A stretch of DNA of 64,000 bases from Rufibacter hautae (GTDB lineage: Bacteria; Bacteroidota; Bacteroidia; Cytophagales; Hymenobacteraceae): assembly GCF_008271695.1 (NCBI RefSeq), contig NZ_VKKY01000001.1, positions 986,589-1,050,588 on the forward strand, given 5' to 3'. Made by a program: the position numbers and the translations under genes. Below the pieces are notes generated by a model. That model was not told where the DNA came from. It made no database searches and saw nothing but the letters and a program-made list of their open reading frames with translations. Every line of letters begins with the position of its first letter. Within the stretch, counting starts at the first letter, position 1. This document shows positions 4,438 to 60,903 of the stretch, in pieces.

Positions 4438-4472
4438 TTTTAAGCCTGTTTTCAGAAAACTGGCGCTAAAAC
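4438..4472. repeat. Palindromic intergenic repeat, copy 1
   Basis: Imperfect palindrome with AAGCCTGTTTT in the left half and AAAACTGGCGCTAAAAC in the right half. It belongs to the family whose perfect copy is at 18858-18895. Confidence 0.65.
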
Positions 4473-4561
4473 AAAACCCTTCAGACTGGCAAAAGGCAGT
4501 TATCATTCTAACCCCTCCAACACAGACCAACCTTCCAAAACGTTCCTTGGCCAACCAAAGC

Positions 4562-4595
4562 TTTTTAGCCGTTTTCCAGAAAACAGGCCTGAAAC
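4562..4595. repeat. Palindromic intergenic repeat, copy 2
   Basis: Same family: left half TTTAGCCGTTTTCC, right half GAAAACAGGCCTGAAAC. It is 89 bases from copy 1 in the same gap. Confidence 0.7.
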
Positions 4596-4901
4596 ACAAG
4601 CTTGACATTTTAGGCTTTAAACTCCCAAAAGTTACGACTTTGCTAACAGAACCCCAATTTTTGCTCAGGCCGCGGAAAGAATGTCAACCACTGGGGCCAG
4701 AACCAAACCTCCCACCTGGCCAAAGGTACCGCCTTTGGCCGCGCCCCGGAAGTATCAAATGTTTCCTTTTGGTGGTTCATTTGTTAAGAATGGCCCACCA
4801 CCGCAGGACTCCTCAAAAAGATGCTTTATACTTGTACAATCCCTGTTTTTGGGCGTTCCAAGGCAGGGGATTATCTGAACAAAATCAAACAACCGAAAAC
4901 A

Positions 4902-7208
4902 ATGAGATACCTTACCCCAATGGCTTTGGTCTTGGCGTTAGGGCTGCAAGCCTGCAGTTCTACCCAGACGGGGCAGTCTGCCAAACCAGAAGCCTCTATG
5001 TCTGCGGCCACCAGCACCGCTCCGGCCACCCAAGCCCGCGACCAGCAGATTGAGGACCTGCTCTCCAGAATGACCGTGGAGGAAAAAGTAGGGCAGATGA
5101 CGCAGCTCACCATTGACCTGATCCTGAAAGACACTGAAGCGGCCACGGTAGACACCGCCAAGCTGCGCCAGGTCTTGGTGAACCACCACATCGGCTCTAT
5201 CCTGAACGTCAAGGGCCGCGCCTACACCATTGACGAGTGGCACACCGTCCTGAATGCCATCCATGACGTGACCGACAAGACCCGCCTGAAGATTCCGGTG
5301 ATCTACGGCATTGACGCCATCCATGGGAACAACTACCTGGCCGGTACTACCCTGTATCCGCACAACATCGGGATGGCCGCCACCCGTAACCCGGAGCTGG
5401 TGAACCGCCTGGCCCAGATCACCGCCCTGGAAACGCGGGCGGCCGGTATTCCGTGGAACTTTGACCCAGTGTTGGATGTGGGCCGTCAGCCGCTGTGGCC
5501 GCGCTTTGAGGAAACCTTCGGCGAAGACGTGTTTGTGGTGAAAACCATGGGCGCCGCCGCCATCAGAGGGTATGAGCAGAACGGAAAAGGCCCCGATTTC
5601 ACCGTGGCCGCCTGTATGAAGCACTTCCTGGGCTACTCCTACCCTTCTACCGGCAAAGACCGCACGCCTTCCTACATTCCGGAGCAGATGCTGCGCGAGG
5701 TTTTCCTGCCGCCGTTCAAAGCGGCCGTGGAAGCCGGCGCTTCTACCGTCATGATCAACTCCGGCGAGATCAACGGCGTTCCGGTACACGGCAGCAAGTA
5801 TTACCTGACCCAAATCCTACGGAACGAACTGGGCTTTGAGGGCGTGGCTGTCTCTGACTGGGAAGACGTGATTCGTCTGCACACCCGCCATAAAGTGGCC
5901 GCCACCCCTAAAGAAGCGGTGAGAATGGCCGTAGAAGCCGGGCTGGACATGAGCATGGTCCCCACCGATTATTCTTTCTATGACCACCTGGTGGCTTTGG
6001 TGAAAGAAGGCACCATCTCTGAAGACCGCATCAACACCTCGGTGCGCCGCATTCTGGCTCTTAAGAAAAAACTGGGCTTGTTTGAGCAAGTGAGACCAAA
6101 GGCAGCCCTCAAAACCACCATTCACAAGGCTGAGTTTGACCAGGTATCCCTGCAGTCTGCCCTGGAGAGCATCACCCTGCTGAAGAACAACAACCAGGTG
6201 CTGCCGCTTAAGAAGACCTCCAAGATTGTGGTAGCCGGCCCAACCGCCAACACCCTGGCGGCCTTGCACGGCAGCTGGTCGTATATCTGGCAAGGAACCG
6301 ATGAAACGCAATATCCAACCAAAGCCAAAACCTTGGTGCAAGGCTTGGTGGCGGAGATCGGGAAGAACAATGTGATTTCCCGTTCTGTGGCTGATTTCGC
6401 CAATGCGGCCAACTACAACGTGGCCCAGCTGAAAAGAGACGCCGCCCAGGCGCAAGCCATCGTGCTTTGCTTAGGCGAGAAAGCGTACGCCGAGAGCCCT
6501 GGCGTGATTGATGACCTTGACTTAGAGGAAAACCAACTGGCCCTGGTGAGAGCCGCCAAAGAAACCGGTAAACCGGTGATCATTGTATTGCTGGAAGGCA
6601 GACCACGCGTGCTTTCTTCGGTAGAGCCGTTAGCCGATGCGATTGTGATGGCTTACAGACCGGCTACCTTCGGGGCTGCAGCCATTTCCGATGTGCTCTT
6701 CGGGGACTACAACCCTGACGGCGTGCTGCCGTTCACGTACCCAAGATTCTCCGGCGACGTGCTGACCTACGACCACAAAGGCACCGAGATCATCCGGGAG
6801 GATATTCCTAATGCCGCCGGTAACCGTGGTTTCAACCCGCAGTGGCCGTTCGGACACGGTTTGAGCTACACTACTTTTGCTTTCTCTGACCTGCGCGTAG
6901 ACAAAACCACCTTCGGCAACAACGATAACCTGAAGGTAACGGTGAAGGTGCGGAACACCGGCAGCAAGGCTGGTAAAAAAGCGGTGGAACTCTACAGCCA
7001 CGACCAGTACGCCAGCATCACCCCGGCCGCCCGCCGCCTGAGAGCTTTCTCCAAAGTGTCGCTGCAGCCCGGCGAGGAGAAGGAAGTGAGCTTCACTATT
7101 TCGGCTAAAGATTTGGCTTTCGTGAACGAGGCCGGCAAATGGGTAACGGAGCCCGGCGCCTTCGACCTGATGGTAGGCGACCAGAAAACTGTGATAACTC
7201 TCCAATAA
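4902..7208 (+). CDS. GH3 beta-glucosidase, lipoprotein
   Basis: Exo-acting beta-glycosidase of family GH3 (beta-glucosidase type), likely removing terminal glucose or related residues from gluco- or galactoglucomannan fragments. I choose ATG 4902 (768 residues) over the longer reading at 4821 because it begins directly with a signal peptide ending in the lipobox LQAC (Cys18). The N-terminal TIM barrel has KHF in CMKHFLGY and the nucleophile Asp319 in VSDWEDV. The alpha/beta sandwich contains the LPF motif and is followed by a C-terminal fibronectin-III-like domain. It is read divergently from the HTCS and is first in the glycosidase run. Exact substrate is not visible from sequence. Confidence 0.93.
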   Translation: MRYLTPMALVLALGLQACSSTQTGQSAKPEASMSAATSTAPATQARDQQIEDLLSRMTVEEKVGQMTQLTIDLILKDTEAATVDTAKLRQVLVNHHIGSILNVKGRAYTIDEWHTVLNAIHDVTDKTRLKIPVIYGIDAIHGNNYLAGTTLYPHNIGMAATRNPELVNRLAQITALETRAAGIPWNFDPVLDVGRQPLWPRFEETFGEDVFVVKTMGAAAIRGYEQNGKGPDFTVAACMKHFLGYSYPSTGKDRTPSYIPEQMLREVFLPPFKAAVEAGASTVMINSGEINGVPVHGSKYYLTQILRNELGFEGVAVSDWEDVIRLHTRHKVAATPKEAVRMAVEAGLDMSMVPTDYSFYDHLVALVKEGTISEDRINTSVRRILALKKKLGLFEQVRPKAALKTTIHKAEFDQVSLQSALESITLLKNNNQVLPLKKTSKIVVAGPTANTLAALHGSWSYIWQGTDETQYPTKAKTLVQGLVAEIGKNNVISRSVADFANAANYNVAQLKRDAAQAQAIVLCLGEKAYAESPGVIDDLDLEENQLALVRAAKETGKPVIIVLLEGRPRVLSSVEPLADAIVMAYRPATFGAAAISDVLFGDYNPDGVLPFTYPRFSGDVLTYDHKGTEIIREDIPNAAGNRGFNPQWPFGHGLSYTTFAFSDLRVDKTTFGNNDNLKVTVKVRNTGSKAGKKAVELYSHDQYASITPAARRLRAFSKVSLQPGEEKEVSFTISAKDLAFVNEAGKWVTEPGAFDLMVGDQKTVITLQ

Positions 7209-7220
7209 CTGACTCACTGT

Positions 7221-7281
7221 AAACAAGCTTTCCGTTTAGGGCATTTTTCTAAAAAACAGCCCCAAAACGGAAAGCTTGTTT
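7221..7281. terminator. Long hairpin after GH3, built around the palindromic repeat
   Basis: Twelve bases after the GH3 stop, AAACAAGCTTTCCGTTT pairs with AAACGGAAAGCTTGTTT, enclosing a copy of the palindromic repeat (AGGGC...GCCCC). A T-rich stretch follows. This looks like a rho-independent terminator in which the repeat forms the top of the stem. Confidence 0.7.
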
Positions 7282-7316
7282 CTTTTAGCTTAAGCCTCAC
7301 CTGCCGCAGATAGCTG

Positions 7317-7350
7317 TTTCCGGGCTGTTTTCCAAAAATCGGCCTTGAAA
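7317..7350. repeat. Palindromic intergenic repeat, copy 4
   Basis: CGGGCTGTTTTCC followed by AAAATCGGCCTTGAAA. It lies 35 bases after the GH3 terminator hairpin, so the gap has two copies of the family. Confidence 0.6.
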
Positions 7351-7421
7351 CCAATAGATAAAACCGGCAGGTCACTTTTGAATCAAATCATCAAATCTCA
7401 TATCACCAATTCCCAAGAAAC

Positions 7422-8447
7422 ATGAACCCTATTAAGCATTTTTTGCGCCACACTTTCGTCCTGTTGCTGGCGGCAACCGTGTGTTTTGGGTGCAAAAGCA
7501 CCGTGCCAGACAAGCCTGCCGCGGTGCAGACGCCGGTGGAGAAACACGGGCAACTGAGTATTGTGGGCACGCACTTGGTGGACCAGAACGGAAAAGCGGT
7601 GCAGCTCAGGGGCATGTCTTTCTTCTGGAGCCAATGGCAGGGCAGTTTCTACAACCCAACTACGGTGAAGTGGCTGAAGGACGATTGGCAGAATACCGTG
7701 GTGCGGGCGGCCATAGGCGTAGACATGGGCGGTTACCTCAAGAACCCCGAGGCCGAGAAGCAGAAGGTGATCACGGTGGTGGAAGCCGCCATCAAGGAAG
7801 GCATTTACGTCATCATTGACTGGCACGACCATGAGGCGCACAAGCACACTGAGCAGGCCAAAGCATTCTTCAGCGAGATGGCCCAGCGCTTCGGGGAGTA
7901 CCCCAACGTGATCTACGAGCCGTTCAACGAGCCTCTGGAAGACGCCGATTGGGCCACCCAGATCAAACCTTACCACGAAACCATCATCCAGGAAATCAGG
8001 AAGCATGACCCCGACAACGTCATTGTCTGCGGTACCAGAATGTGGTCTCAGCGGGTAGACGAGGCCGCAGAGAACCCCATCAACGCGCGCAACATCGCCT
8101 ATACTTTGCATTACTACGCCGCCACGCACAAACAGGAGCTCCGCAACATTGCCGCCAAAGCCATCGCCAAAGGGGCGCCGCTGTTCGTGACCGAGTTCGG
8201 GACCTGCGCCGCCGACGGCAACGGAAAGGTGGATGAGGCAGAGTCTATAGCTTGGTGGGCTTTCCTGGACGAGCACCAGATCTCGTGGTGCAACTGGTCG
8301 GTAGCCAACAAAGACGAGGCCGCCTCGGCCCTGAAACCCGGTATTAACGCCCCTGGTCAGTGGGCCGAAGCCAACATCAGCGCCTCGGGGCAACTGGTGC
8401 GGCAGCAACTTCTGGAGAAAGCCAAACAGGAGAAAACGCAGCCTTAA
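7422..8447 (+). CDS. GH5 endoglucanase-like glycoside hydrolase, probable lipoprotein
   Basis: Family GH5 endo-beta-glycosidase of 341 residues, most like bacterial endo-1,4-glucanases. An N-terminal signal ends near Cys24 (CFGC), a loose lipobox. The catalytic acid/base is Glu170 in YEPFNEPL and the nucleophile Glu258 in FVTEFGT; the conserved HY pair lies in TLHYYAATH. It sits directly after the GH3 gene on the same strand and is closed by a strong terminator, so GH3-GH5 may form a unit attacking the glucose-containing linkages of glucomannan. A mannanase specificity cannot be excluded. Confidence 0.88.
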   Translation: MNPIKHFLRHTFVLLLAATVCFGCKSTVPDKPAAVQTPVEKHGQLSIVGTHLVDQNGKAVQLRGMSFFWSQWQGSFYNPTTVKWLKDDWQNTVVRAAIGVDMGGYLKNPEAEKQKVITVVEAAIKEGIYVIIDWHDHEAHKHTEQAKAFFSEMAQRFGEYPNVIYEPFNEPLEDADWATQIKPYHETIIQEIRKHDPDNVIVCGTRMWSQRVDEAAENPINARNIAYTLHYYAATHKQELRNIAAKAIAKGAPLFVTEFGTCAADGNGKVDEAESIAWWAFLDEHQISWCNWSVANKDEAASALKPGINAPGQWAEANISASGQLVRQQLLEKAKQEKTQP

Positions 8448-8470
8448 CCTGGTTGTTCGAACCAGCTATT

Positions 8471-8518
8471 AGCAGAAATCCCCACGTAAACCATTTTACG
8501 CGGGGATTTCTGCTTTTC
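8471..8518 (+). terminator. Rho-independent terminator after GH5
   Basis: A 20-bp stem with one mismatch (AGCAGAAATCCCC plus ACGTAAA paired with TTTACG plus CGGGGATTTCTGCT), four-base loop and following TTTT. It starts 23 bases after the GH5 stop. Confidence 0.85.
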
Positions 8519-8540
8519 AAGAAGAAGGCCTGCCGTTGTG

Positions 8541-8575
8541 TTTAGGGCCTGTTTTAAGAAAATCGGCCTTGAAAC
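8541..8575. repeat. Palindromic intergenic repeat, copy 5
   Basis: TTTAGGGCCTGTTTT followed by AAAATCGGCCTTGAAAC, located between the GH5 terminator and the stop of the convergent AraC gene. Confidence 0.7.
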
Positions 8576-8592
8576 GGAGCTTTGGTTTTGTA

Positions 8593-9465
8593 TTAAATAA
8601 ACACCCGAGAGCCGGAGTAGTTCTGCCGGAATTCTTTGGGCGTACAGCCGTTTTTGCGCCGAAAAATGCGGTTGAAGTAAGAGAGGTTGTTGAAGCCGCA
8701 CTTGAAAGAGACCTCCGAGATGGTTTCGGTGGTGTCAATGAGCATGCGCGAGGCGTGCCCTAGCCTGATCTCGTTCAGGCTCTCGATAAAGGTTTTTCCG
8801 GTCCGTTTTTTAATAAACCGACTGAAAGAGACTTCGGGCATGTTCACCACTTTGGCCACATCGGCGAGGGAAACCTCTTTGTCATAGTAGGTCTGCATGT
8901 ACTCAAACGCTTTCTCAATGCGCCGGCTGTAGTAGTTGAACTGGTCTGAGGTGAAGGAGCTGTTGGAGAGCGTGCGCATGTTGCGCGAGATGGACAAATC
9001 ATGCAGGATGGAGATCAGCTCCAGCACCGAGTCAAAGCCGCCTTTCTGGGTCAGTTGTTTCAGGCGGGGCCTGAACGCCTCTTTTATCTCACGGGAGAAA
9101 GAAATGCCTTTGCTGGCGCGCTCCAGCAAAGCCCTGATGAAGCTCAACTGGTTCCGGCGCAGGAATTTCTCATCCAGCAGATCGCGGTGGAACTGAATGG
9201 TGATCTCCTCAATCTCCTTGCTTTTGCACTGGTGCGTAAACCAACCATGCGGCAGATTGCTTCCCACCAAAACCAAGTCCAGGTCATCAATGATCTCCAC
9301 GTGGTCGCCCACTACCCGTTTGGCACCGGCAGCGTTGTACACAAAGTTCAACTCGAAGTCCTCGTGGTAATGAAGCGGAAAGTTGAATTCCTCCTTCACC
9401 CTGGAAAACAGGGTAAAGCAGTCGTTCTGCGTCAGAGGGGTAATCTCACGATAAATTGCACTCAT
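8593..9465 (-). CDS. AraC-family transcriptional regulator
   Basis: A 290-residue regulator with an N-terminal cupin-like sensor half (about 1-110, including LPHGWFTH) and a C-terminal HTH_18 pair (about 185-285: LADVAKVVNMPEVSFSRF and ISEVSFKCGFNNLSYFNRIF). It is encoded on the minus strand between the GH3-GH5 unit and the GH26-led run, with a 522-bp upstream region shared with GH26. It is therefore a likely local controller, in addition to the HTCS. The ligand would be a sugar, by analogy with related AraC proteins; nothing in the sequence identifies it. Confidence 0.9.
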   Translation of the reverse strand: MSAIYREITPLTQNDCFTLFSRVKEEFNFPLHYHEDFELNFVYNAAGAKRVVGDHVEIIDDLDLVLVGSNLPHGWFTHQCKSKEIEEITIQFHRDLLDEKFLRRNQLSFIRALLERASKGISFSREIKEAFRPRLKQLTQKGGFDSVLELISILHDLSISRNMRTLSNSSFTSDQFNYYSRRIEKAFEYMQTYYDKEVSLADVAKVVNMPEVSFSRFIKKRTGKTFIESLNEIRLGHASRMLIDTTETISEVSFKCGFNNLSYFNRIFRRKNGCTPKEFRQNYSGSRVFI

Positions 9466-9987
9466 AAGAACTGAATTATATGGTCAATTTACACATTTTT
9501 GCTTAAAGCCGCCTCCAGAACGTTAAAAAAATACCAGTCTGTTGACACCTTGTCACCCCCTTCAATTACCTAGAAAGCCATCACTACAGCTAAATTCCCC
9601 GAGACAACTATTTACCACCATATCTGGTCAAAGCAAAACAGACCATCAACCAACCCTTGATTTGTTTAAGCTATTAGTAAAATCAGCAACAATTAGTCAA
9701 TTTCAAGCTATTCTATTATAGTTCTTGCAACATTCAACAAAAACGCCTTCAAAAACTCCTCTTCCATAGCTGGCACATGGAAGGGCTATATTCCATCAAA
9801 TAAACGATAAAATAGTACTACAACCCTGCAGAAAAACTACCTAGTTTTGTAAAGTAGCGAAGAGCCATGCACTCGCTTAGGCAGAAATCAAGAGAAAACC
9901 ATAAAGACCTTAAACACCGGGCAAGCTCGCCGATTAAAAACCACGATTTCGGTCTTTTAAATTCAAAGCCTTTACCAAACAGAACAT
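9466..9987. other. Divergent promoter region, AraC / GH26
   Basis: A 522-bp AT-rich gap between two divergent start codons. No gene is seen and, unusually here, no palindromic repeat copy. It is the best place to look for operators of the locus, since the whole GH26-to-GH5 run begins downstream. Confidence 0.5.
9842..9849 (+). promoter_or_regulatory. Candidate -7 element upstream of GH26
   Basis: TAGTTTTG matches the Bacteroidota TAnnTTTG -7 consensus. A start about six bases on would give a leader of about 130 bases before GH26. No clear -33 TTG/TTTG is present, so this is weak. Confidence 0.3.
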
Positions 9988-11151: not shown

Positions 11152-11206
11152 AACCGTATTACACCGCCTCTTCTACACCAACTACAACAAACCTTCACTC
11201 TCGTCC

Positions 11207-13078: not shown

Positions 13079-13128
13079 GTCAAGGACGGCCCTGACCAGC
13101 CGTTTCAGCAACCTTTTACAAAATCCCC

Positions 13129-15590: not shown

Positions 15591-15605
15591 CTAAAATACC
15601 TTTCT

Positions 15606-15643
15606 CGTTTTAAGGCTGGTTTGCGGAAATCGGGCTTGAAACG
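15606..15643. repeat. Palindromic intergenic repeat, copy 6
   Basis: CGTTTTAAGGCTGGTTT in the left half, AAATCGGGCTTGAAACG in the right half. It starts 15 bases after the epimerase stop. Confidence 0.65.
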
Positions 15644-15654
15644 GGAAGGAATCA

Positions 15655-18857: not shown

Positions 18858-18895
18858 CGTTTAGGGCCTGTTTTGAAGAAAACAGGCCCTAAACG
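18858..18895. repeat. Palindromic intergenic repeat, copy 9 (perfect)
   Basis: The cleanest member of the family: 17-bp arms CGTTTAGGGCCTGTTTT and AAAACAGGCCCTAAACG with no mismatch and a four-base loop, 13 bases after the GH27 stop. As RNA it would form a strong hairpin readable in both directions. Confidence 0.9.
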
Positions 18896-20435: not shown

Positions 20436-20456
20436 CACCATTATCCTTTCCTCTCT

Positions 20457-20548
20457 TTGTCATCTTGGAAAGATTTTTTGAGTGAACGGTAAAAGTGTTG
20501 TAGTAAATAATATTACCGTTCGCTCAAAAGCTCCTTTCAGGATGACAA
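20457..20548. repeat. MITE-like inverted-repeat element (92 bp)
   Basis: Two 36-bp arms (20457-20492 and 20513-20548) match at 30 of 36 positions as inverted repeats. The outer ends read TTGTCATC and GATGACAA, the inner ends GAACGGTAA and TTACCGTTC, separated by 20 bases. No open reading frame is inside. A related element is at 22005-22085. Confidence 0.75.
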
Positions 20549-20615
20549 AATGAAAGACTGCCTTTCTCTATACCTTGGTCTTTCCTTTAGTTGAGGATAA
20601 CCCACTTGAAACCAC

Positions 20616-23582: not shown

Positions 23583-23653
23583 GGTCGTGTGGCTGAGTGG
23601 CTAAGCAAAGACCCGCAAGGTTTTTTAGGACGGTTCGATTCCGTCCGTGACCG
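23583..23653 (+). tRNA. tRNA-Cys(GCA)-like gene, atypical
   Basis: The 71-base sequence folds as a full cloverleaf. The acceptor stem is GGTCGTG/CGTGACC (two wobble pairs). The D arm has a 3-bp stem and GG, the anticodon stem is AAGAC/GTTTT, the variable loop has 4 bases and the T arm is GACGG-TTCGATT-CCGTC. The anticodon at 23615-23617 is GCA (cysteine), and the D-arm layout is like Bacteroidota tRNA-Cys. Two bases are wrong for that: position 33 is C rather than the near-universal T, and discriminator base 73 is G rather than the T expected by CysRS. CCA is not encoded. It may be a diverged second copy or a pseudogene. Confidence 0.65.
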
Positions 23654-26998: not shown

Positions 26999-27006
26999 TC
27001 AAAACC

Positions 27007-27038
27007 AGAAGCGGCAGGCCTAGTAACTTGCCGCTTCT
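27007..27038. terminator. Hairpin after the TonB receptor
   Basis: AGAAGCGGCA pairs with TGCCGCTTCT around a 12-base loop, eight bases after the receptor stop; followed by AGTTTA, a weak T-run. Confidence 0.55.
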
Positions 27039-27059
27039 AGTTTACATCCTCAGCCTTTT

Positions 27060-30598: not shown

Positions 30599-31264
30599 TT
30601 AGTTCAACATAGGATTCTGCGGAAACTTAGAGAACTTTGATTTAGAGGCGAAGATCAGCACCTGAATCATGATCCCAATACTGATGACCAAGACAAACGC
30701 CAACTGGGTAAGAACCTCAGAGCCCGCCATCATCTGTTTGGTAGAATCATTCAACCGCTTGCCCTCGGCTACCTGTATGCGAGACAGGTGGTTCAGGTAG
30801 TTCGTGGCCAATTGGAATTTAGCGTCCAGCTTTTGCTTGGCTGGTTGCGCTGCCTCCCCTCCCACCTGTTGCAGATATTGGTTTTCCAGCGCCTGCAGCG
30901 CCTGGTGGTTCTGGTTGAAGGCCGCTAAGTACCGGGCCTCGGCATGGGTTAACTCCGTCTTGCCAAACTCCGTGAGGAGGGTGGCAATGGCCTTGTTGTT
31001 TTCCTGCAACCCAGACGCCAGCTTGCCGTCATTGCCGGCATAGAAGGAATTGTCCACCAACATTTTTTTCTGGTACAGGTGCCCCGACAATTGGTAGATG
31101 TAGCTTTCCACCAACAGTCTGTCTTCATAGACAGTGGCGAAGGAAGAGCCCAGTTTGGTGACCGTTTTGTTGTCCAGCGTATTCTTAGCCAGCACCAGCA
31201 CCATCACTACTGCCAGCAGCAGCGCGGCTTTTGTTTTATGTTTCACGCTATATACCCATCTCAT
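30599..31264 (-). CDS. Membrane protein with four-helix-bundle (MCP-like) sensor domain
   Basis: ATG 31264 gives 221 residues; the longer reading at 31480 adds a non-signal, repeat-containing N-terminus and is rejected. One helix at about 14-30, a periplasmic all-helical region of about 150 residues (4HB_MCP-like) and a second helix at about 190-212 leave only a short basic tail. Chemoreceptors and kinases have such a sensor fused to a signalling domain; here none is present and no neighbour supplies one. It may be a stand-alone sensor or a partner subunit. Function unknown. Confidence 0.72.
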   Translation of the reverse strand: MRWVYSVKHKTKAALLLAVVMVLVLAKNTLDNKTVTKLGSSFATVYEDRLLVESYIYQLSGHLYQKKMLVDNSFYAGNDGKLASGLQENNKAIATLLTEFGKTELTHAEARYLAAFNQNHQALQALENQYLQQVGGEAAQPAKQKLDAKFQLATNYLNHLSRIQVAEGKRLNDSTKQMMAGSEVLTQLAFVLVISIGIMIQVLIFASKSKFSKFPQNPMLN

Positions 31265-31463
31265 CTTTCCGGAAAGTAAGGAGTGAAAAAAACAGAAAGG
31301 GAAAGCACTTACAGAAAACAATCTCTTGCTAGCCGCAGAAGAAAGAACAAGGCTTCGCCCTGTCAGTAAGTTACGAAATTTAAACCACAAAACCGAGGCA
31401 TTTCCCTCTCCAGAAGCCAACGTCTGAAATAGCCCAAAATTACTACAGAACCAGCGCCAAAGA

Positions 31464-31507
31464 ACGTGTTTCGGGCTCATTTTCCGGAAAACAGGCCCGA
31501 AACACGT
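31464..31507. repeat. Palindromic intergenic repeat, copy 15 (extended)
   Basis: Arms ACGTGTTTCGGGCTCATTTT and AAAACAGGCCCGAAACACGT pair at 17 of 20 positions around a four-base loop; the copy starts seven bases after the SDR stop on the minus strand. Confidence 0.8.
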
Positions 31508-36820: not shown

Positions 36821-36854
36821 TTTCGGGCCTGTTTTTGGTAAAACAGGCCCGAAA
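36821..36854. repeat. Palindromic intergenic repeat, copy 18 (perfect)
   Basis: Perfect 15-bp arms TTTCGGGCCTGTTTT and AAAACAGGCCCGAAA with a four-base loop, 27 bases past the end of the minus-strand 3-keto-sugar cluster, where a terminator is expected. Confidence 0.9.
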
Positions 36855-40905: not shown

Positions 40906-40959
40906 ATGTATTTTTCTCTTCTATGAATTTCGTTCTGATCTTTCTGTTGCGGTTAGGTT

Positions 40960-41002
40960 TCTGGTTTTGGCCTTGTTTTACCAAATCAGGCCCGAAACCA
41001 GA
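40960..41002. repeat. Palindromic intergenic repeat, copy 20 (extended)
   Basis: TTCTGGTTTTGGCCTTGTTTT and CAAATCAGGCCCGAAACCAGAA form an extended imperfect stem. It starts 17 bases past the stop of the Gfo/Idh gene. Confidence 0.7.
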
Positions 41003-41018
41003 ACACCGTACCTTGAAT

Positions 41019-44305: not shown

Positions 44306-44547
44306 AATGGCTTTTTAATAATAAAATTTAAAAACAGCAAAAGCAAGCGCACCCCGCTAACCAACCCCAAAAAACCAAAAATTCTCTTGATACTGGTAAG
44401 ATATTAGCAGCGGACGTGCTAAAAGGATTTACCTGAGGAATACTCCTTTAAGTCTTCTTTGGCTAAAACAGGCTTAAAACGAGGACCCGCGCATCGGATT
44501 TGTCCATGGAAAGATGGGGCTACTCAGCCTATAAAAATTGCGAGAAC

Positions 44548-46088: not shown

Positions 46089-46146
46089 GGTCGTTGTGTT
46101 AATTAAAATGACAGGTATTTATACGGTTTTTTATCACGAAGCCGAA

Positions 46147-46154
46147 CAAAGTTA
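46147..46154 (-). promoter_or_regulatory. Candidate -7 element of yajQ
   Basis: On the minus strand TAACTTTG fits TAnnTTTG. A start near 46140 would give a leader of about 50 bases; the -33 box is not clear. Confidence 0.35.
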
Positions 46155-46198
46155 CTAGTTTAGCGAAATTTTACGGAAAAGAGCTTAAAAACGCAGTC

Positions 46199-55107: not shown

Positions 55108-55127
55108 GAAAACCTACTTAAAAGAAA

Positions 55128-55176
55128 CTCCCCGGTTTAGGGCCTGTTTTATGAAAACAAGCCTTAAACCGGGGAG
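55128..55176. repeat. Palindromic intergenic repeat, copy 25 (extended)
   Basis: 23-bp arms CTCCCCGGTTTAGGGCCTG... and its partner pair at 21 of 23 positions with a three-base loop. It begins 20 bases after the tamL stop and probably ends that transcript. Confidence 0.85.
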
Positions 55177-55244
55177 CTTACATTTACGGTAATCTGTTTC
55201 ATTGGCAGGTAGATTTTGCTCTTGCTTTACCTTCATTCTTCAGG

Positions 55245-55844
55245 TCATTTCAGCTTCACCAGGTTGAGCGCGGGCAAAGGTCCACCGGGGAATTGCTGTA
55301 GCCGTCCGCCTTCGTTCAGGGTGCCTAAATCCACGCCGGCAAAGCCGATGCGATTGATGAGATCCAGCACGGTCCTTTTCGCTTCGGCGTCATTACCGGA
55401 GTAGAAGATCACGCGGTTACCGCCTTCTTCCTGCGGGTTTGCGGCCAGAACGGCGGCCAACAATGTATTGAAGGCTTTCACCACTTTGGAGCCAGGCAAC
55501 AGGGAGGCCACCACTTCGCTGGAAGCTTGGCCATCTAGGTCGGCGGGCACAAAACCGGGCAGCACGGCATTGGTGGCATCTATGACCACGCGGTTCTCCC
55601 AAGACGGCACGTGGGCCACCGCTTCCTCCAGTTTATTCCAGGGTACGGCCAGAAACACAATGTCTGCCGCAGCGGCTTCCTGGGTTGTGCCCGCCTTTAT
55701 GCCTTGGCCAATTTCCTCCACCACAGGGCGTAATGACTCTGGTCCGCGGCTGTTACTGATGAGGGTGTCATACCCTGCTTTGGCGGCGTGCCGGGCAAAG
55801 GCTTTGCCTATTTTACCGGCTCCTATGATTCCTATTTTGGTCAT
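55245..55844 (-). CDS. F420H2:NADP-reductase-like dinucleotide-binding protein
   Basis: A 199-residue NADP-binding protein with the Rossmann start MTKIGIIGAGKIGKAFARHA and VVKAFNTLLA; it is about the length of the NADPH-F420 reductase family. In Bacteroidota, where F420 is not expected, the electron partner is probably different. It lies 30 bases after the pirin stop on the minus strand and could be co-transcribed with it. Confidence 0.88.
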   Translation of the reverse strand: MTKIGIIGAGKIGKAFARHAAKAGYDTLISNSRGPESLRPVVEEIGQGIKAGTTQEAAAADIVFLAVPWNKLEEAVAHVPSWENRVVIDATNAVLPGFVPADLDGQASSEVVASLLPGSKVVKAFNTLLAAVLAANPQEEGGNRVIFYSGNDAEAKRTVLDLINRIGFAGVDLGTLNEGGRLQQFPGGPLPALNLVKLK

Positions 55845-55874
55845 GACTTCTGATTTTTAGGCGCTAAACATTCC

Positions 55875-56749
55875 TTAGTTATGGTACACGATCTCGCCGT
55901 ACTTGCCATTGAAGAAATCTCGGTACGCCACGGCAATCTCGGTCCGGCTGTTCATCACAAAAGGACCTTCGGCCACGATGGGCTCCGTATAGCTTTCTCC
56001 CCCGAAAATGATCAGGTCAATGGCTTTCTCGGCGGGGTTGTACACGTCAATAGCGCCGTCTTTGCGGTCAAACTCAATGAACTCACCAGCCGTGTAGGCA
56101 TCTCCGTTGATGCTGACATTGCTTTCCAGCAGGAAGGCGGCATACTCTAACCCGCCTTGGGTGGCAAGAGAGAATTGCTGGCCGGCCTCTAAATGCAGGT
56201 GGTAGATGAACTGCTCTGAGTAGCTGGGGATCTGAGAAGTGAGTTCCGCGTAACGCCCGGCTACGACTTTGATCCATCCTTTGCCCTGTTCCAATTCTTT
56301 CTGCGGCACTTCTTGGGCCTGTACAGCCAGGTACTCAGGAGACTCGGCTTTGTTTTTGGCGGGGAGGTTCACCCAGAACTGCAGGCCGTGGGTGGTTCTG
56401 TTTTCCAACTGCGGATCTGGGTTCAGGTTCTCGTCATGGATGACTCCGTTACCGGCTTTCATCCACTGGATACCGCCGAGGTTACCTTGGCGTGGTGCCC
56501 GGCACTGTCAAAGTGTTCATCCTCGCCCTGGAGCAGATAGGTCAACGTGGCGATGCCTCTGTGGGGGTGCGCGCCGGTCCCGTTTTTCATTCTAGGCGCA
56601 TCTGCCGCGTGTACTTTAGGGGCGATGTGGTCCAGGAACACAAAGGGGCCCACGGCCTGCGTGTATCTGTTGGGCACAATGCGGTAGATGGTTAAATCGC
56701 CTATATCGGCCCGTTGGCCTTTGGTGGTGAAGCTTACTTCCTTTTTCAT
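55875..56749 (-). pseudogene. Pirin, split by a single-base frameshift
   Basis: Two overlapping readings together make a normal-length pirin. The first, 56749-56459, has the metal site AHPHRGIATLTYLLQGEDEHFDS; it runs to HHAKVTS then shifts. The second, 56462-55875, starts MKAGNGVIHDENL and holds the C-terminal cupin. Reading through in the second frame restores GGIQWMKAG exactly, so about one base is missing near 56476-56480. Pirin is an iron-binding cupin, often a quercetinase or transcription cofactor. It may be inactive, or the base may be a sequencing error. Confidence 0.85.
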
Positions 56750-56901
56750 GTCTGTATCGTTTTAAGGTTGAAGAAGGGCTGTTTATTTCCCTTATGAACG
56801 ATACAAAGATGCGGCCTTGCCCTGCCCAAAGACGATGAGATTTGGTAAATAAAAGCGTTGACAAATGTCAACGAAACCCGGTAAAGGCTAGCCGCAGTAA
56901 A

Positions 56902-57480
56902 CTAAAGGGAATGCTTTCTAATGCGGCTGAGGGTTTCCTTGGTGATGCCCAGGTAAGAGGCGATGAGGTGTTGCGGAAAGCGCTGCACCAACTCGGGGTG
57001 CTGGAGGGTGAAATCGGTGTAGCGTTTCTCAGCGGAGAAGCTGATGGCGGCGTTGATTCTGCGTTGGTTGGCCATGGAGTGGCGGTCATCCATCTGGCGG
57101 GCCATTTTAGTCAAGGTTGGTACCTGCTCGTAGAGTTGGAACAGGTGGGCTTTCTCCACCAGCAGCAGGTCTGTGTCTTCCCAGGCATCTATGTTAAACG
57201 CGGAGGGAGTGAGCATCAGGAAACTTTCGCGGTCGCCCACCCACCAGTTCTCAATGGCCAGTTGCACAATGTGCTCGGCGCCTTTCTCGTCTACGCTGTA
57301 CTGCCGCATGGCGCCTTTCACGATGAAGGCCATGTACCGGCAGATATCGCCGCTCTGCAACAGGTACTGCCGCTTCCGCAAGCGTTTGGGAACAAAGGCG
57401 TTTCTGATCAGTTCCTGCTCCTGGGGCGTAAGCGTGGCCTGGGTATACTGACCGATGTAGTTGAAAAGGGCTTCGTGCAT
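56902..57480 (-). CDS. Crp/Fnr family regulator (cyclic-nucleotide-binding domain)
   Basis: A 192-residue regulator with an N-terminal cyclic-nucleotide-binding domain (about 20-130, LLQSGDICRYMAFIVKGAMRQYS) and a C-terminal helix-turn-helix (about 165-190, IASYLGITKETLSRIRK). No Cys cluster for oxygen sensing is present. It sits upstream of pirin on the same strand and divergent from the NmrA gene, so it may control the redox group around it (inference). Confidence 0.9.
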   Translation of the reverse strand: MHEALFNYIGQYTQATLTPQEQELIRNAFVPKRLRKRQYLLQSGDICRYMAFIVKGAMRQYSVDEKGAEHIVQLAIENWWVGDRESFLMLTPSAFNIDAWEDTDLLLVEKAHLFQLYEQVPTLTKMARQMDDRHSMANQRRINAAISFSAEKRYTDFTLQHPELVQRFPQHLIASYLGITKETLSRIRKHSL

Positions 57481-57704
57481 GGCGTCTGAAAGCGTGCCGC
57501 AGTATACGGAAAAATCACTTGCGCCGGAAACATGCCCCAGGAAGAATCTGCTGGCAGCATGGCCTTGCCGCCGGAAAGAGCATGAGTTATTGGCCGATAT
57601 GGGAGTTGGTTTAATCTGGGGAATGTCGTGCCGTAGACTTTGCCCCCCTTCCCTAACCTTTTCCCCCGATTGCGGTTATGGTTACAATTCAAAAAGATTA
57701 AACC

Positions 57705-58640
57705 ATGTTCATTGACGGGAGCGCTGTATTGCAAGAGAAAACCATTGTTATAGCCGGTGCCACCGGAGACCTGGGTACGCGCATTGCCGGACACCTGCTG
57801 CACCGCGGAGCCCGGGTGCGGGCACTTGTGCGCCCCGGCAACACCAGCGATAAAACCGCGAATTTGCAGGCCAAGGGCGCTACGGTGATAGAGGTAGATT
57901 ACAGAAACCACGCAGAACTGGTAAAAGCCTGCGCGGGCGGCACCTGCGTGGTCTCCGCGCTATCTGGCCTGGAGGAGGTGATTTTGGATGCCCAGACGGC
58001 GTTGTTGCAGGCGGCCGTGGAAGCCGGAGTACCCCGCTTTATTCCTTCTGACTTCGCGATTGATTTCACCAAGCTGCCCCACGGCACCAACCGCAACCTG
58101 GATCTGCGGCAGGAGTTCAAAGAGCGCCTGGACAAAGCACCCATTGCGGCAACCTCAGTACTCAACGGTATGTTCTCTGACCTCCTGACGGGCCAGGCGC
58201 CGGTAGTCTTGTTTCCGCTTAAACGGGTAGTGTACTGGGAAGACGCAGACCAACCGCTGGACTTCACCACCATTGAAGACACCGCCGCGTTCACCGCCGC
58301 TGCCGCCCTGGATGCGGCCACACCCCGTTACCTGCGGATTGCAGGCGATGTGCTGAGTGCGCGGGGCCTGAAGGAAGCCGCCAGCCAGGCCACCGGAGAT
58401 CAATTCAAGTTGCTCAAGGCCGGAAAGCTGGGTCGGCTGGACAAAATCATCAAGTTCACGCGAACGGTCTTCCCGCAGAAAGAAGAAGTCTTCCCGGCTT
58501 GGCAAGGCATGCAGTACATGCGGAACATGTTCAGCGGGCTCCCCATACTAACACCGCTGGACAACAATCGTTACCCGGGCATCAGATGGACCACCGTTCA
58601 GGAAGTACTCGCGCAGCACGTTCAGCAGAACCCAAAATAA
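57705..58640 (+). CDS. NmrA-like NAD(P)-binding reductase
   Basis: A 311-residue protein with Rossmann motif IAGATGDLGTRIAGHLL and the NmrA/isoflavone-reductase pattern (PRFIPSDFAIDFTKLP). These enzymes or redox sensors use NAD(P)H; the substrate is unknown. It is divergent from the Crp/Fnr regulator with a 224-bp gap and ends before a bidirectional terminator. Confidence 0.88.
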   Translation: MFIDGSAVLQEKTIVIAGATGDLGTRIAGHLLHRGARVRALVRPGNTSDKTANLQAKGATVIEVDYRNHAELVKACAGGTCVVSALSGLEEVILDAQTALLQAAVEAGVPRFIPSDFAIDFTKLPHGTNRNLDLRQEFKERLDKAPIAATSVLNGMFSDLLTGQAPVVLFPLKRVVYWEDADQPLDFTTIEDTAAFTAAAALDAATPRYLRIAGDVLSARGLKEAASQATGDQFKLLKAGKLGRLDKIIKFTRTVFPQKEEVFPAWQGMQYMRNMFSGLPILTPLDNNRYPGIRWTTVQEVLAQHVQQNPK

Positions 58641-58669
58641 ACCTTACCAAGCATCTGTCAAGCCGGGCT

Positions 58670-58708
58670 GCTTTTGGCTTGTTTTACAGATATCAGCTTC
58701 AAAACAGC
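58670..58708. repeat. Palindromic intergenic repeat, copy 26
   Basis: GCTTTTGGCTTGTTTT and ATATCAGCTTCAAAACAGC, 30 bases past the NmrA-like stop. Confidence 0.6.
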
Positions 58709-58772
58709 TTTTAGGAGAATTCATGTTTTAGAAGCTCTTTTTGAAAAACAGGCTCAATTTGCGCTTGCTTTC

Positions 58773-58818
58773 AAAACAGAATCGCCACCCGTTGCAACAC
58801 GGGTGGCGATTCTGTTTT
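58773..58818. terminator. Bidirectional terminator between NmrA-like gene and asnB
   Basis: Perfect 20-bp arms (outer AAAACAGAATCGCC, inner ACCCGT) with a six-base loop and A-rich/T-rich flanks on both sides, suited to stop both convergent genes. Confidence 0.88.
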
Positions 58819-58838
58819 TTGGCTTTGGGTCTAAAGGC

Positions 58839-60521
58839 TTATTGCAAGACTTCCTGCTGGTACGCCTTGGCGTGGACGTTGGCCACGGCTCTACCCGAAG
58901 GATCGTTCAGGTTCTTGAAGGAGGCATCCCATTCCAGCGCTACTGGCGAACTGCAGGCCACGGATGGCACGGAAGGCACTGAGAGCGCGGCGGCATCGCT
59001 GGGGAAGTGCTTGGAGAAAATAGACCGGTAGTAGTACTCCTCTTTAGACGATGGCGTCTGGATAGGGAACCGGAAGCGGGCGTTGGCCAGTTGCTCATCG
59101 CTCACTTTGGCGTTCACCATCTCCTTGAGGGTGTCAATCCAGCTGTAGCCAACCCCGTCTGAGAACTGCTCTTTCTGGCGCCAGGCCACGCTGGCCGGCA
59201 GGTAGTCTTCAAACGCTTTGCGCAACACCCATTTCTCCATGCGTTCGCCGTTGATGAGCTTGTCCTGGGGGTTGATGCGCATGGCCACATCCATGAACTC
59301 TTTGTCCAGGAACGGCACGCGGCCCTCAATGCCCCAAGAGGCCAGGGATTTGTTCGCACGCAGGCAGTCATACATGTGCAGTTTGTCCAGCTTGCGCACG
59401 TTCTCTTCGTGGAAGGCCTTGGCGTTAGGTGCCTTGTGGAAGTACAGGTAACCCCCGAAGATCTCATCGGCGCCCTCGCCGGAGAGCACCATTTTGATGC
59501 CCATGGCTTTGATGGCTCGGGCCATGAGGTACATAGGCGTTGACGCGCGCACGGTGGTCACGTCATAAGTCTCCAGGTGGTAGATCACGTCTTTGATGGC
59601 GTCAATGCCCTCCTGGATGGTGAATTTGATCTCATGGTGCACCGTACCCAGGTGATCGGCTACCTTCTGAGCCGCCGCTAAGTCTGGGGAGCCTTCCAAC
59701 CCGATGGCGAAGGAATGCAGTTGGGGCCACCAAGCGGCCTCCTGGTCGTTGGTTTCTACGCGCCGCTCAGAGTATTTCTTGGCAATGGCCGAGGTGATGG
59801 AGGAATCAAGTCCGCCGGAAAGCAGCACACCGTAGGGCACATCGCTCATGAGTTGACGGTGCACGGCGGCTTCCAGGGCTTCTCTCAACGCCTGGATGTC
59901 TGTTTCGTTTTCGGCTACGTTTTTGTACTCCATCCAGTCGCGGTCATACCATTTCTGGTAGCCTTCTTCTTTGCTGGACAGGTAATGGCCTGGCGGGAAC
60001 AGCTCAATTTTGGCGCACTTCCCTTCCAAAGCCTTCAGCTCAGAGGCCACGTAGAACGTACCATTCTGGTCCCAGCCGATGTACAGCGGGATAATGCCCA
60101 TGTGGTCACGGGCGATGAGGTACTCGTTGTTCTCAATATCATAGATGGCAAACCCGAAGATGCCGTTGAGGTCATCCAGGAACTTGGTGCCTTTCTCTTT
60201 GTAAAGCGCCAGAATGACCTCGCAGTCAGACTTGGTCTGGAAATTATAGTTGGTGGTGAGGTTCTCACGCAGCTGCAGGTGGTTATAGATCTCGCCGTTG
60301 GCGGCCAGCACCAGTTTTCCGTCCTGGCTGAACAAAGGCTGTTTCCCCGAGATAGGGTCCACAATGGCCAACCGCTCATGGGCCAGGATCGCATTCTCAT
60401 TGCTGTAAACCCCGCTCCAATCCGGACCACGGTGCCGGATACACTTCGCCATTTCCAAAACCTGGGGCCGCAACGCCTCAGATGACTCTTTTAAATCGAA
60501 AGCACAAACAATTCCACACAC
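58839..60521 (-). CDS. asnB: Asparagine synthase (glutamine-hydrolysing), AsnB
   Basis: A 560-residue class II glutamine amidotransferase/asparagine synthetase. The start codon is GTG, placing the catalytic Cys2 (MCGIVCAF) directly after the initiator; an ATG 10 bases upstream is out of frame. The N-terminal glutaminase domain (about 1-200) has RGPDWSG and VLAANGEIYNH. The synthetase domain (about 215-520) carries the PP-loop SGGLDSSITSAIAKKY and the motif LSGEGADEIFGGY. ATP-dependent amidation of aspartate using glutamine. The last 40 residues are variable. Confidence 0.94.
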   Translation of the reverse strand: MCGIVCAFDLKESSEALRPQVLEMAKCIRHRGPDWSGVYSNENAILAHERLAIVDPISGKQPLFSQDGKLVLAANGEIYNHLQLRENLTTNYNFQTKSDCEVILALYKEKGTKFLDDLNGIFGFAIYDIENNEYLIARDHMGIIPLYIGWDQNGTFYVASELKALEGKCAKIELFPPGHYLSSKEEGYQKWYDRDWMEYKNVAENETDIQALREALEAAVHRQLMSDVPYGVLLSGGLDSSITSAIAKKYSERRVETNDQEAAWWPQLHSFAIGLEGSPDLAAAQKVADHLGTVHHEIKFTIQEGIDAIKDVIYHLETYDVTTVRASTPMYLMARAIKAMGIKMVLSGEGADEIFGGYLYFHKAPNAKAFHEENVRKLDKLHMYDCLRANKSLASWGIEGRVPFLDKEFMDVAMRINPQDKLINGERMEKWVLRKAFEDYLPASVAWRQKEQFSDGVGYSWIDTLKEMVNAKVSDEQLANARFRFPIQTPSSKEEYYYRSIFSKHFPSDAAALSVPSVPSVACSSPVALEWDASFKNLNDPSGRAVANVHAKAYQQEVLQ

Positions 60522-60692
60522 GATACTTGCATCTTTTAATTAACGATTATCAAATATGGCAGGAATAATTTAAAACAACATAAATATTCGCAACATTTTT
60601 ACCAAAACGTTGAAAAATACCTAACATTACGCTTCTACAGGTGCTTGTATTATATTAGAACAGCAGAATGGTTGTTAGTTTGGCACTAGGCG

Positions 60693-60712
60693 GATTGATT
60701 GATTGATTGATT
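60693..60712. repeat. (GATT)5 tandem repeat
   Basis: Five perfect GATT units. It is about 170 bases upstream of asnB, so copy-number change would not alter a coding frame. Confidence 0.85.
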
Positions 60713-60866
60713 GGAGATCTGGTTCCCTGCAGGTCTTCCATTCTCTTCTGCGCGAGAACAGCTTTCTGTTTCTAGTACGATTTTTTGAAAACAGCCCTAA
60801 AACTCGCATGGGGAGACTTCCCGCTTTTCAGGTGAATAACCCAACCCCTGCTACCATGTACAATTT

Positions 60867-60903
60867 GTGTTTCAGGGTTGTTCTTGGGAAAACCAGGGCA
60901 AAC
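60867..60903. repeat. Palindromic intergenic repeat, copy 28
   Basis: GTGTTTCAGGGTTGTTC and GGAAAACCAGGGCAAAC, a moderately conserved copy. A half-copy (TTTTTTGAAAACAGCCCTAA) is at 60774-60803. Confidence 0.55.

Follow-up and report, generated by a model that had tools for sequence, protein, structure and literature searches.

High-copy palindromes of bacterial chromosomes are usually interpreted as selfish REPs or as hairpin terminators. DNA-uptake signals (DUS and USS) are short and oriented, and intragenic copies of them are common. Noc NBS, matS and parS are palindromic chromosomal sites that are read as double-stranded DNA by a dimeric protein and are present in tens of copies. In eukaryotes, the roadblock terminators Reb1 and TTF-I are DNA-bound proteins that halt polymerase at gene ends, and we know of no general bacterial counterpart of them. 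REP, BIME and REPIN elements, treated in PMC3733652, are intergenic palindromes of 20-40 bp with a high copy number, most of them lying downstream of genes in tandem and convergent gaps. The same paper describes a preference for 3' ends as typical of REPs, super-families tagged with GTAG or CGTC, and 'untagged' REP-like sequences. DUS of the Neisseriaceae (PMC3630211) and USS of the Pasteurellaceae occur in thousands of copies within one group, with species dialects and with inverted pairs often at terminators. Here we describe a palindrome of the Rufibacter group that is attracted to stop codons.

The window analysed is a stretch of 64,000 nt from Rufibacter hautae (GCF_008271695.1, NZ_VKKY01000001.1 positions 986,589-1,050,588; genome code G000). 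The repeat unit is a 38-bp palindrome, YGTTTYNRGSCYGTTTT-N3/4-mirror. In the window, its half-motif, GGGCCTGTTTTC, has 26 matches with at most two mismatches; dinucleotide shuffles (n=100) averaged 9.8 ± 3.0 matches and never gave as many as 26. From 484 kb of G000, including the window, a symmetric weight matrix was trained. It revealed 35 window copies of at least 20 bits, and no copy in any of 30 sequences simulated from the dinucleotide statistics of the window (Table 1). An earlier round of the same model gave 249 sites of at least 16 bits in the 484 kb and 2 in the reversed sequence. The sequence-only reading had claimed about 28 copies over 4438-60903; thus, the family is real, more numerous, and wider in range (114-62609). 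Among the 35 copies, two are intragenic, one overlaps a predicted gene start, and one is probably a promoter element that matches by chance. Two copies had been called perfect palindromes, and they are (18858-18895, 17/17 bp; 36821-36854, 15/15 bp). Extended copies, also claimed before, were confirmed at 7221-7281, 31464-31507, 40959-41003 and 55125-55179. An Rfam scan of the window at gathering thresholds returned a single match, a tRNA, so the palindrome matches no Rfam family, and literature searches found nothing on it; the earlier statement that no named family has this sequence stands as far as searched.

Table 1. Copies of the palindrome in the window, with weight-matrix scores (a dot marks an unstranded feature)
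Position	Strand	Feature	Score
114..151	.	palindromic site	29.9 bits
4436..4473	.	palindromic site, divergent gap (this gap holds 2 sites in G014, G010, G003 and G008, 1 in G011)	33.5 bits
4559..4596	.	palindromic site, same divergent gap as 4436..4473	33.1 bits
7221..7281	+	site 7233-7269 nested in tip of terminator-like hairpin; 14 flanking bases each side identical in G014, core different	35.3 bits (7233-7269)
7315..7352	.	palindromic site	37.0 bits
8539..8576	.	palindromic site, convergent gap, near terminator hairpin 8471-8514	39.7 bits
14557..14594	.	intragenic site (doubtful)	23.3 bits
15606..15643	.	palindromic site, 16 bp past a stop	38.0 bits
15654..15691	.	palindromic site	27.1 bits
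17508..17545	.	palindromic site; gap occupied in 5/5 relatives compared	33.8 bits
18858..18895	.	perfect palindrome; gap occupied in 5/5 relatives compared	43.4 bits
20400..20437	.	palindromic site	25.0 bits
22131..22168	.	palindromic site	28.5 bits
23709..23746	.	palindromic site; right half mostly common to G014	35.4 bits
27060..27097	.	palindromic site, near hairpin 27002-27043	39.4 bits
28218..28254	.	palindromic site, 7 bp past a stop	28.1 bits
28317..28354	.	palindromic site	35.1 bits
31467..31504	.	palindromic site, extended palindrome 31464-31507; overlaps predicted start of minus-strand gene 30599-31480	39.0 bits
32392..32429	.	palindromic site	27.8 bits
36070..36107	.	palindromic site	33.7 bits
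36819..36856	.	near-perfect palindrome; GGGCCTG core also in G014, G010, G003	41.1 bits
38689..38726	.	intragenic site (doubtful)	24.7 bits
40187..40224	.	palindromic site; gap occupied in 5/5 relatives compared	31.7 bits
40959..41003	.	site 40963-40999, flanked by complementary arms	35.4 bits (40963-40999)
44444..44481	.	palindromic site	30.3 bits
44548..44584	.	palindromic site	26.9 bits
46156..46193	.	match ending 5 bp before an ATG, flanks conserved along with it; probably a promoter element, not a family member	24.4 bits
47304..47341	.	palindromic site	34.2 bits
47588..47625	.	palindromic site	32.3 bits
55125..55179	.	site 55134-55170 nested in terminator-like hairpin, convergent gap	37.9 bits (55134-55170)
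58669..58706	.	palindromic site, convergent gap	31.7 bits
58725..58761	.	weak site, near terminator hairpin 58773-58818	22.2 bits
60767..60804	.	palindromic site	33.5 bits
60868..60905	.	weak site	23.9 bits
62573..62609	.	weak site, adjoins gene ending at 62570	22.2 bits

Beyond the window, the whole G000 genome has 654 half-sites compared with 4 in reversed controls. The exact frame GTTT-N9-TTT-N3/4-AAA-N9-AAAC was found 741 times in G000 and 3 times in the reversed form. This full frame occurs 293-1654 times per genome in all 16 genomes of the genus and 0-3 times in other genera of the family, as in their controls. Site density was 6-14 per 20 kb (0.3-0.7 per kb) in the 15 Rufibacter-group species sampled; by extrapolation, there are about 3,000 sites per genome. 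Many of the stretches analysed had been picked around RAYT genes and not randomly. A simple count of 6-mer inverted repeats in 80 kb from each of five sister genera revealed no comparable family, the g3 stretches containing N runs. Within the order as sampled, the palindrome is restricted to the Rufibacter group. Even spacing along the chromosome was tested and is unsupported; the observed CV is 0.78 and counts are sub-Poisson, but the evenness does not exceed that expected from gene layout.

Sites avoid genes and follow their ends. In the 15 species, genes cover 69.5% of the sequence yet contain only 75 of 647 sites. Neither outcome that the sequence-only reading had named as refuting it was seen: half-sites are enriched genome-wide, and copies are scarce inside genes. 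Of the convergent gaps at 80-300 bp, 52 of 58 are occupied; tandem gaps are occupied in 3 of 125 cases below 80 bp and in 187 of 269 at 120-500 bp. Divergent gaps are occupied in 9 of 38 cases at 120-300 bp and in 36 of 55 at 300-1000 bp (5 of 7 at 80-120 bp, some of these being orthologous copies of one gap). Because this table includes orthologous copies of some gaps, G000 was recounted alone, with 21/22 convergent (80-299 bp), 2/61 tandem (<80 bp) and 4/12 divergent (120-299 bp) gaps occupied. In tandem gaps of 450-2000 bp, the first 160 bp past the stop contain 2.9-5.1 sites per kb and the remainder 0.5-1.4, in a count restricted to positions 150 bp or more from the next start. Sites are attracted to stop codons.

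Constraint within the palindrome is uneven. The T-block positions 4, 5, 15 and 16 of the left half are about 95% constant, with T at 216, 214, 215 and 209 of 219 sites, respectively. The core drifts with little compensation between left and right, and core pairing is near that given by column composition. The earlier description, with one half kept and the other degraded, is too simple; the T-blocks are retained and the core varies. The centre is 3-4 nt long in 232 of 239 sites in G000, 44 of 45 in G003 and 40 of 45 in G008. Solitary halves of at least 16 bits are rare: 255 full sites are accompanied by 7 of them, and the reversed control has 1. Because of this rarity, a MITE or IS with the half-motif as terminal repeat was ruled out.

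The same pattern is observed between species. At 112 sites compared between G000 and the close species G014, identity is 0.93, 0.90, 0.92 and 0.94 at positions 4, 5, 15 and 16; it is 0.63-0.76 over core positions 7-14 and 0.714 in the intergenic flanks (n=33250). Thus, the T-frame is more strongly conserved than the flanks; compared with G011, frame conservation is weak. Among the G000 sites, 93 have flanks that can be aligned to G014; 84 of these face a site there and none faces a clean empty site, in an alignment that started from G000 sites in one direction only and left out gaps longer than about 900 bp or differing by more than 300 bp. The two species agree in the occupancy of 139 of 150 gaps and disagree in 11. 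Over all pairs of genomes, 364 comparisons are both occupied, 301 both empty and 121 discordant, the same gaps being counted repeatedly and hence not independent. Site positions are vertically inherited between close species. Species dialects also exist: the core has switched from TGTTT to TCATT genome-wide in one species. The G012 half-motif, GTTTTCGGGCTCATTT, has 2592 matches in G012 and 81 in G000; conversely, the half-motif of G000 matches 52 times in G012. In gaps common to G012 and G007, several sites lie at near-equal distances (139/139, 85/84 and 58/60 bp) with differing dialects.

The sequence-only reading had offered a bidirectional transcription-end or mRNA-stability element. A transcription-end role fits the convergent gaps and the crowding past stops. 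An RNA-level hairpin, either a bidirectional intrinsic terminator or an mRNA 3'-end stabiliser, is nevertheless unlikely for the family. Like intrinsic bidirectional terminators, the palindromes lie at convergent and tandem gene ends, and about 10% have complementary arms (21 of 219 sites, 2.0 expected); the cores of these sites have 4.29 of 7 positions paired compared with 3.11 in the others. However, the 198 armless sites show no significant excess of core pairing (3.11 of 7, 3.01 permuted, p 0.11). Over all 219 sites the excess is slight (3.22, 3.05 permuted, p 0.011), with 9 fully paired cores where 1.5 were expected. RNAalifold on 70 sites (those of the window and of L031-L038 with a 4-nt centre, 10 of 80 having been removed by hand, mostly intragenic or weak) gave 0 pairs, i.e., no consensus fold. 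Covariation in this set is weak overall (73.4% of cells paired, 71.8% shuffled, 3/500; score 0.187, 0.157 shuffled, 0/500). Unlike terminators, most copies show little pairing constraint and one sequence frame is common to the genus; the T-blocks are conserved by letter, and the centre is almost fixed. Separate terminators adjoin sites. An independent intrinsic terminator (dG <= -15) was found at 49% of convergent 3' ends in five species of the genus and at 50% in sister genera, by a lax finder whose reversed controls at such ends were 0.11 (genus), 0.18 (sister) and 0.50 (G012, whose counts were left unused). Site and terminator co-occur independently (48 with both, about 47 expected). The site thus does not simply replace terminators.

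It is rather improbable that the palindrome is a REP- or REPIN-like mobile unit spread by a RAYT (Y1 HUH) transposase, although copy number, palindromy and intergenic 3' placement are as in such elements, and RAYT-like genes are present in 15 of 16 genomes of the genus. G006, one contig and 99% complete, has no detectable Y1/RAYT gene and retains 1115 half-sites, and Y1 genes are also present in genera without the repeat. A mobile unit maintained in trans, which had been suggested earlier, is therefore unsupported, with no clean empty site among the 93 tested from G000 to G014 and largely concordant gap occupancy; dependence on RAYT is disfavoured. T-blocks and core also drift unequally. The 438 flank reads of 219 sites, compared at ten offsets, revealed no positionally fixed GTAG or CGTC tag, and the commonest 4-mer at any offset reached 23/438; GTAG was in 23 reads and CGTC in 11, compared with 26 and 38 for the reversed letters. 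The two bases adjoining the site show weak preferences only (C 45%, T 40%). The palindrome differs from the REPs described in PMC3733652 in the lack of a tag found, the conserved T-frame with drifting core, the near-fixed centre, inherited positions, and persistence without RAYT in G006.

Still more doubtful is a role in DNA uptake, in which the palindrome would be a self-recognition signal propagated by biased transformation and tolerated chiefly in intergenic DNA. Thousands of copies and genus-wide dialects recall the Neisseriaceae DUS (PMC3630211). Larger minor contigs, possibly plasmids, contain few sites (2 in 40 kb of G000 C4+C5, 1 in 40 kb of G008 C2), but two 7.5-kb minor contigs (G000 C6 and G008 C3) contain 3 sites each, G000 C6 also having 1 reversed-control match; the nature of these contigs is uncertain and all were scored with the G000 matrix, so they are weak evidence of plasmid depletion. 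Unlike DUS and USS, the Rufibacter family consists almost only of the fixed 38-bp pair concentrated at stop codons. Single oriented copies are rare, intragenic sites are few, and density peaks at stops instead of being even over neutral intergenic DNA. If the palindrome were a favoured target at which gyrase, or a different topoisomerase, relieves gene-end supercoils, the 3' and convergent placement would be the same, but gyrase is expected in sister genera too, which lack the palindrome, and a strict 38-bp target with shifting dialects would be unlikely for gyrase; we consider this very improbable. Such a role would resemble that of E. coli REP/BIME, and a link between gyrase and REPs is discussed in PMC3733652.

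The best explanation, to which we give about an even chance, is that the palindrome is the double-stranded DNA target of a putative protein marking or insulating the ends of transcription units. Letter-specific positions under purifying selection and a fixed geometry are both found, as expected for such a target, and the conservation of the palindrome suggests that a protein reads it as double-stranded DNA. We infer both the binding and the role in ending or insulating transcription from sequence. Against this reading stand the weak overall covariation, the intrinsic terminators that coexist with sites, the occupied divergent gaps, a 3'-end preference that REPs have too, a chromosomal spacing explained by gene layout, and the weak frame conservation relative to G011. 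One trans-acting, sequence-specific protein of the Rufibacter group, a dimer or tetramer, would read the site symmetrically; each half would present two T-blocks (positions 3-5 and 15-17) about one helical turn apart, and the halves would be joined across the near-fixed 3-4 bp centre. The protein would be located where transcription units end, on their 3' side, and in a convergent pair the two genes would often share a single copy. This boundary may work in both directions, as a transcription roadblock, a fail-safe terminator, or an anchor that handles accumulated supercoils. The tenth or so of sites with complementary arms may be placed within the tip of a genuine hairpin terminator.

Like Noc NBS, matS and parS, the palindrome would be a chromosomal site read by a dimeric protein, here putative; unlike them, it is tied to gene 3' ends, differs in sequence, and is far more abundant. 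The proposed halting of polymerase at gene ends by a DNA-bound protein would resemble Reb1 and TTF-I. We suggest tentatively, as a possibility that we rate on the doubtful side, that Rufibacter has a dedicated 'gene-end' DNA-binding protein, which would correspond in bacteria to the roadblock terminators or insulators of eukaryotes, and whose specificity would have shifted at least once, with thousands of sites changing dialect in place along with it. The substitution pattern points to DNA-level recognition at most gene ends throughout the genus, and at least one species has changed dialect across its whole genome. If the boundary protein is confirmed, it would be a general protein-based way for bacteria to end or insulate transcription units, and its dialects would be a rare natural experiment in the co-evolution of a regulator and thousands of its sites.

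The window (contig C1, 986589-1050588, of the 5.84-Mb genome G000) contains 35 sites at >=20 bits, as compared with 0 in 30 simulated controls. The site is a 38-bp palindrome of two 17-nt halves, and was modelled by a symmetric matrix (17+centre+17) in six training rounds on 484 kb of G000. Scanning the 484 kb with this matrix gave 249 sites at >=16 bits versus 2 in reversed sequence, which extrapolates to ~3,000 sites per genome. A contig search with the exact core palindrome returned at least 112 stretches; among the 80 matches listed, all were from Rufibacter or Sabulibacter ruber, and we take these to be the group bearing the palindrome (family Hymenobacteraceae). With up to two mismatches, the G000-type half-site has 654 matches in G000 (4 in reversed sequence), 52-2080 in 15 other genomes of the genus (2-10 reversed) and 0-16, the order of reversed controls, in 63 genomes of other genera and families. 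The bare T-frame, consisting of the T-blocks at half positions 3-5 and 15-17 and their complement, separates the genus from others more sharply: 741 matches in G000 (3 reversed), 293-1654 across all 16 genus genomes and 0-3 in the family's remaining genera. The sequence-only reading had proposed counting the copies in relatives with a profile; by the counts above, the repeat family is present in all 16 genus genomes. One genome of the same order and another family, G049, has 34 T-frame matches versus 5 reversed, which looks like a different AT-rich repeat. Most of the G049 matches listed are GTTTTTAGCCTATTTTGTCAAATAACTGGTAAAAC-type repeats, nearly identical to one another, which have the T-frame in common by chance or analogy. 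Species-specific matrices gave 6-14 sites per 20 kb in 15 species, a sample in which five species had 20 kb only and several stretches were picked around RAYT genes (encoding Y1 HUH transposases tied to REP palindromes). G006, another genome of the group, has 14 sites in 40 kb. Therefore, species vary in fit to the consensus more than in site number.

The T-blocks are nearly invariant. Among 219 sites, the left half has T at position 4 in 216, position 5 in 214, position 15 in 215 and position 16 in 209, and position 7 is without a majority base. A search with the core only recovered few sites, giving 45 matches versus 16 in the reversed control; the T letters were kept in 27/45 and 0/16 of them, respectively. 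This indicates that the T-blocks are not a search artefact. Left-right pairing at core positions 8-14 is as column composition predicts (z -1.0 to 1.4; 219 sites), and pairing exceeds that prediction at positions 1, 6 and 7 (z 3-5) and, more weakly, at a few bases outside the site. RNAalifold over 70 sites predicted zero pairs. On these 70 sites, a pair counter found a small real excess (73.4% versus 71.8% of cells paired), and the covariation score was 0.187 versus 0.157 (0/500 shuffles). Complementary outer arms are present in 21/219 sites versus 2.0 expected, and the cores are better paired there. The excess is significant over all 219 sites pooled (p 0.011) and not in the 198 sites without such arms (p 0.11); it is concentrated in a minority of sites. 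When centres of 0-15 nt were all allowed without penalty, the centre was 3 or 4 nt in 232/239 sites of G000, 44/45 of G003 and 40/45 of G008. Such a near-constant centre would be required by two protein halves on DNA and not by a hairpin loop.

The sites were compared between G000 and its relative G014 across 163 orthologous gaps; proteins of the two genomes are on average 94% identical. Among gaps of 60 bp or longer, 139/150 were concordant (90 both occupied, 49 both empty) and 9 + 2 discordant. Well-aligned flanks in G014 were found for 93 of the 112 aligned G000 sites; the counterpart was a site in 84 and non-scoring DNA in 9, and a clean empty gap was seen opposite 0/93. Identity is 0.90-0.94 at positions 4, 5, 15 and 16, 0.78 at position 3 and 0.81 at position 17, versus 0.714 in the flanks and 0.63-0.76 in core positions 7-14. 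Because sites were picked in G000 only, the search did not select for the identity seen in G014. Comparing G000 on a smaller scale with five relatives gave the same picture for G014, G010, G003 and G008, and a weak one for G011; we rely mainly on G014, since the motif partly steers alignments at lower identity. We consider it quite probable that the site has a function, is old and is recognised chiefly as dsDNA.

Species have their own dialects of the site. Most species have cGTTTt.gGcCTGTTTT, and G012 has CGTTTTcGGgCTCATTT, in copies sharper than those of most species. The G012 half-motif has 2592 matches in G012 versus 81 in G000, and the G000 half-motif has 52 in G012. These genome-wide counts are the firm evidence for dialects. 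Over 80 kb of G012 and G007, several sites lie at near-equal distance from the left gene (139/139, 85/84 and 58/60 bp), each in the local dialect. In shared gaps the own matrix fits better in 9/9 G012 and 8/8 G007 sites, a count that is biased because the sites were found with those matrices and training data partly overlap. The comparison covered 16 gaps of 60 bp or more, of which 5 were both occupied, 6 both empty and 5 discordant, so site positions are only partly common to two genomes this far apart. If mobile copies had overwritten sites repeatedly, the same positions would have to be struck. Sites that stay in position and take on a new dialect are what could result if a trans-acting reader changed its specificity. 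The dialects of DNA uptake sequences (PMC3630211) are the nearest evolutionary parallel.

A REP-like unit maintained in trans was one of the alternatives offered by the sequence-only reading. Y1_Tnp or a closer RAYT query found genes in 15/16 genus genomes (two in G000). However, neither query found a gene in G006 (single contig, 99% complete), which keeps 1115 half-sites. Genera that lack the repeat commonly have Y1 genes as well. RAYT may have had a part in the origin of the palindrome family, and is unneeded by it in G006 today. By appearance, the nearest class is the 'untagged' REP-likes, whose partners are given as unknown in PMC3733652; according to the same paper, tagged REPs prefer tandem and convergent gaps, as the Rufibacter palindrome does. 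A REP-type tag was looked for at the palindrome and none was found. PMC5217627 lists spaced palindromes of different kinds, in 52 and 57 copies, that lie close to the ends of genes in bacteria of other groups. No Rufibacter or Hymenobacter palindrome was found described in the literature searched.

Other elements lie in the same DNA. The 16-mer CCCCCTTTGAAGGGGG of a second repeat family has 30 matches, both strands counted, across 1.81 Mb sampled from the genus, as compared with 0 across 0.4 Mb from sister genera. The GTCATCCTGAAAGG motif of a 94-bp inverted repeat, perhaps a small mobile element, occurs 15 times and 0 times in stretches of these sizes, respectively. The gap between the DUF520 and GNAT genes is 108-115 bp in 14/14 relatives compared; a site-like sequence right before the ATG, conserved along with its flanks in several relatives, is probably a promoter or leader element.

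Features of the window and of L011, a G000 stretch
Feature	Position	Remarks
Classic hairpins near sites	8471-8514, 27002-27043, 58773-58818	
Site within tip of terminator-like hairpin	7221-7281	14 flanking bases per side exact in G014, inner core different
Site within tip of terminator-like hairpin	55125-55179	
Inverted repeat, 94 bp	20456-20549	ends TTTGTCATC/GATGACAAA
tRNA gene	23583-23653	long gap before 24131
Second repeat family, around CCCCTTTGAAGGGG	starts 27203, 27365, 36125	
Gap, DUF520 (YajQ-like) / GNAT acetyltransferase genes	46089-46198	
RAYT-like gene, 196 aa	L011:9684-10274, minus strand	HxH motif by eye

Sites are placed mostly by gene ends. Genes were called by a simple codon-usage caller, which agrees well with long ORFs and may miss small genes. 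In 15 species (647 sites; some gaps are orthologous copies), sites occupy 52/58 convergent gaps of 80-300 bp, 3/125 tandem gaps below 80 bp and 187/269 of 120-500 bp, and 9/38 divergent gaps of 120-300 bp and 36/55 of 300-1000 bp. G000 alone gives 21/22 (convergent, 80-299 bp), 2/61 (tandem, <80 bp), 46/67 (tandem, 120-299 bp) and 4/12 (divergent, 120-299 bp). In tandem gaps of 450-2000 bp, density at positions 150 bp or more away from the following start is 2.9-5.1 sites/kb up to 160 bp from the stop versus 0.5-1.4/kb farther. Long convergent gaps have ~4 sites/kb, dropping to <2/kb past 80 bp, and a weaker rise is seen 80-200 bp upstream of starts. This long-gap profile makes attraction to 3' ends, beyond mere promoter avoidance, likely. 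In five genus species, 49% of convergent 3' ends have an independent terminator (dG <= -15), versus 50% in sister genera; for tandem gaps of 120 bp or more, the shares are 26% versus 41%. A hairpin is nested around the site at 16% of convergent and 6% of tandem ends. Since the presence of site and independent terminator is uncorrelated (convergent, 48 with both versus ~47 expected), the site is a layer added to terminators and not a plain substitute. Roadblock, fail-safe and supercoil-handling versions are inseparable by the present analysis. Positive supercoiling was reportedly the subject of a GapR-seq study (PMC8360656). Whichever version applies, we hold it about equally probable that the job of the site is bounding or ending transcription as that it is something else.
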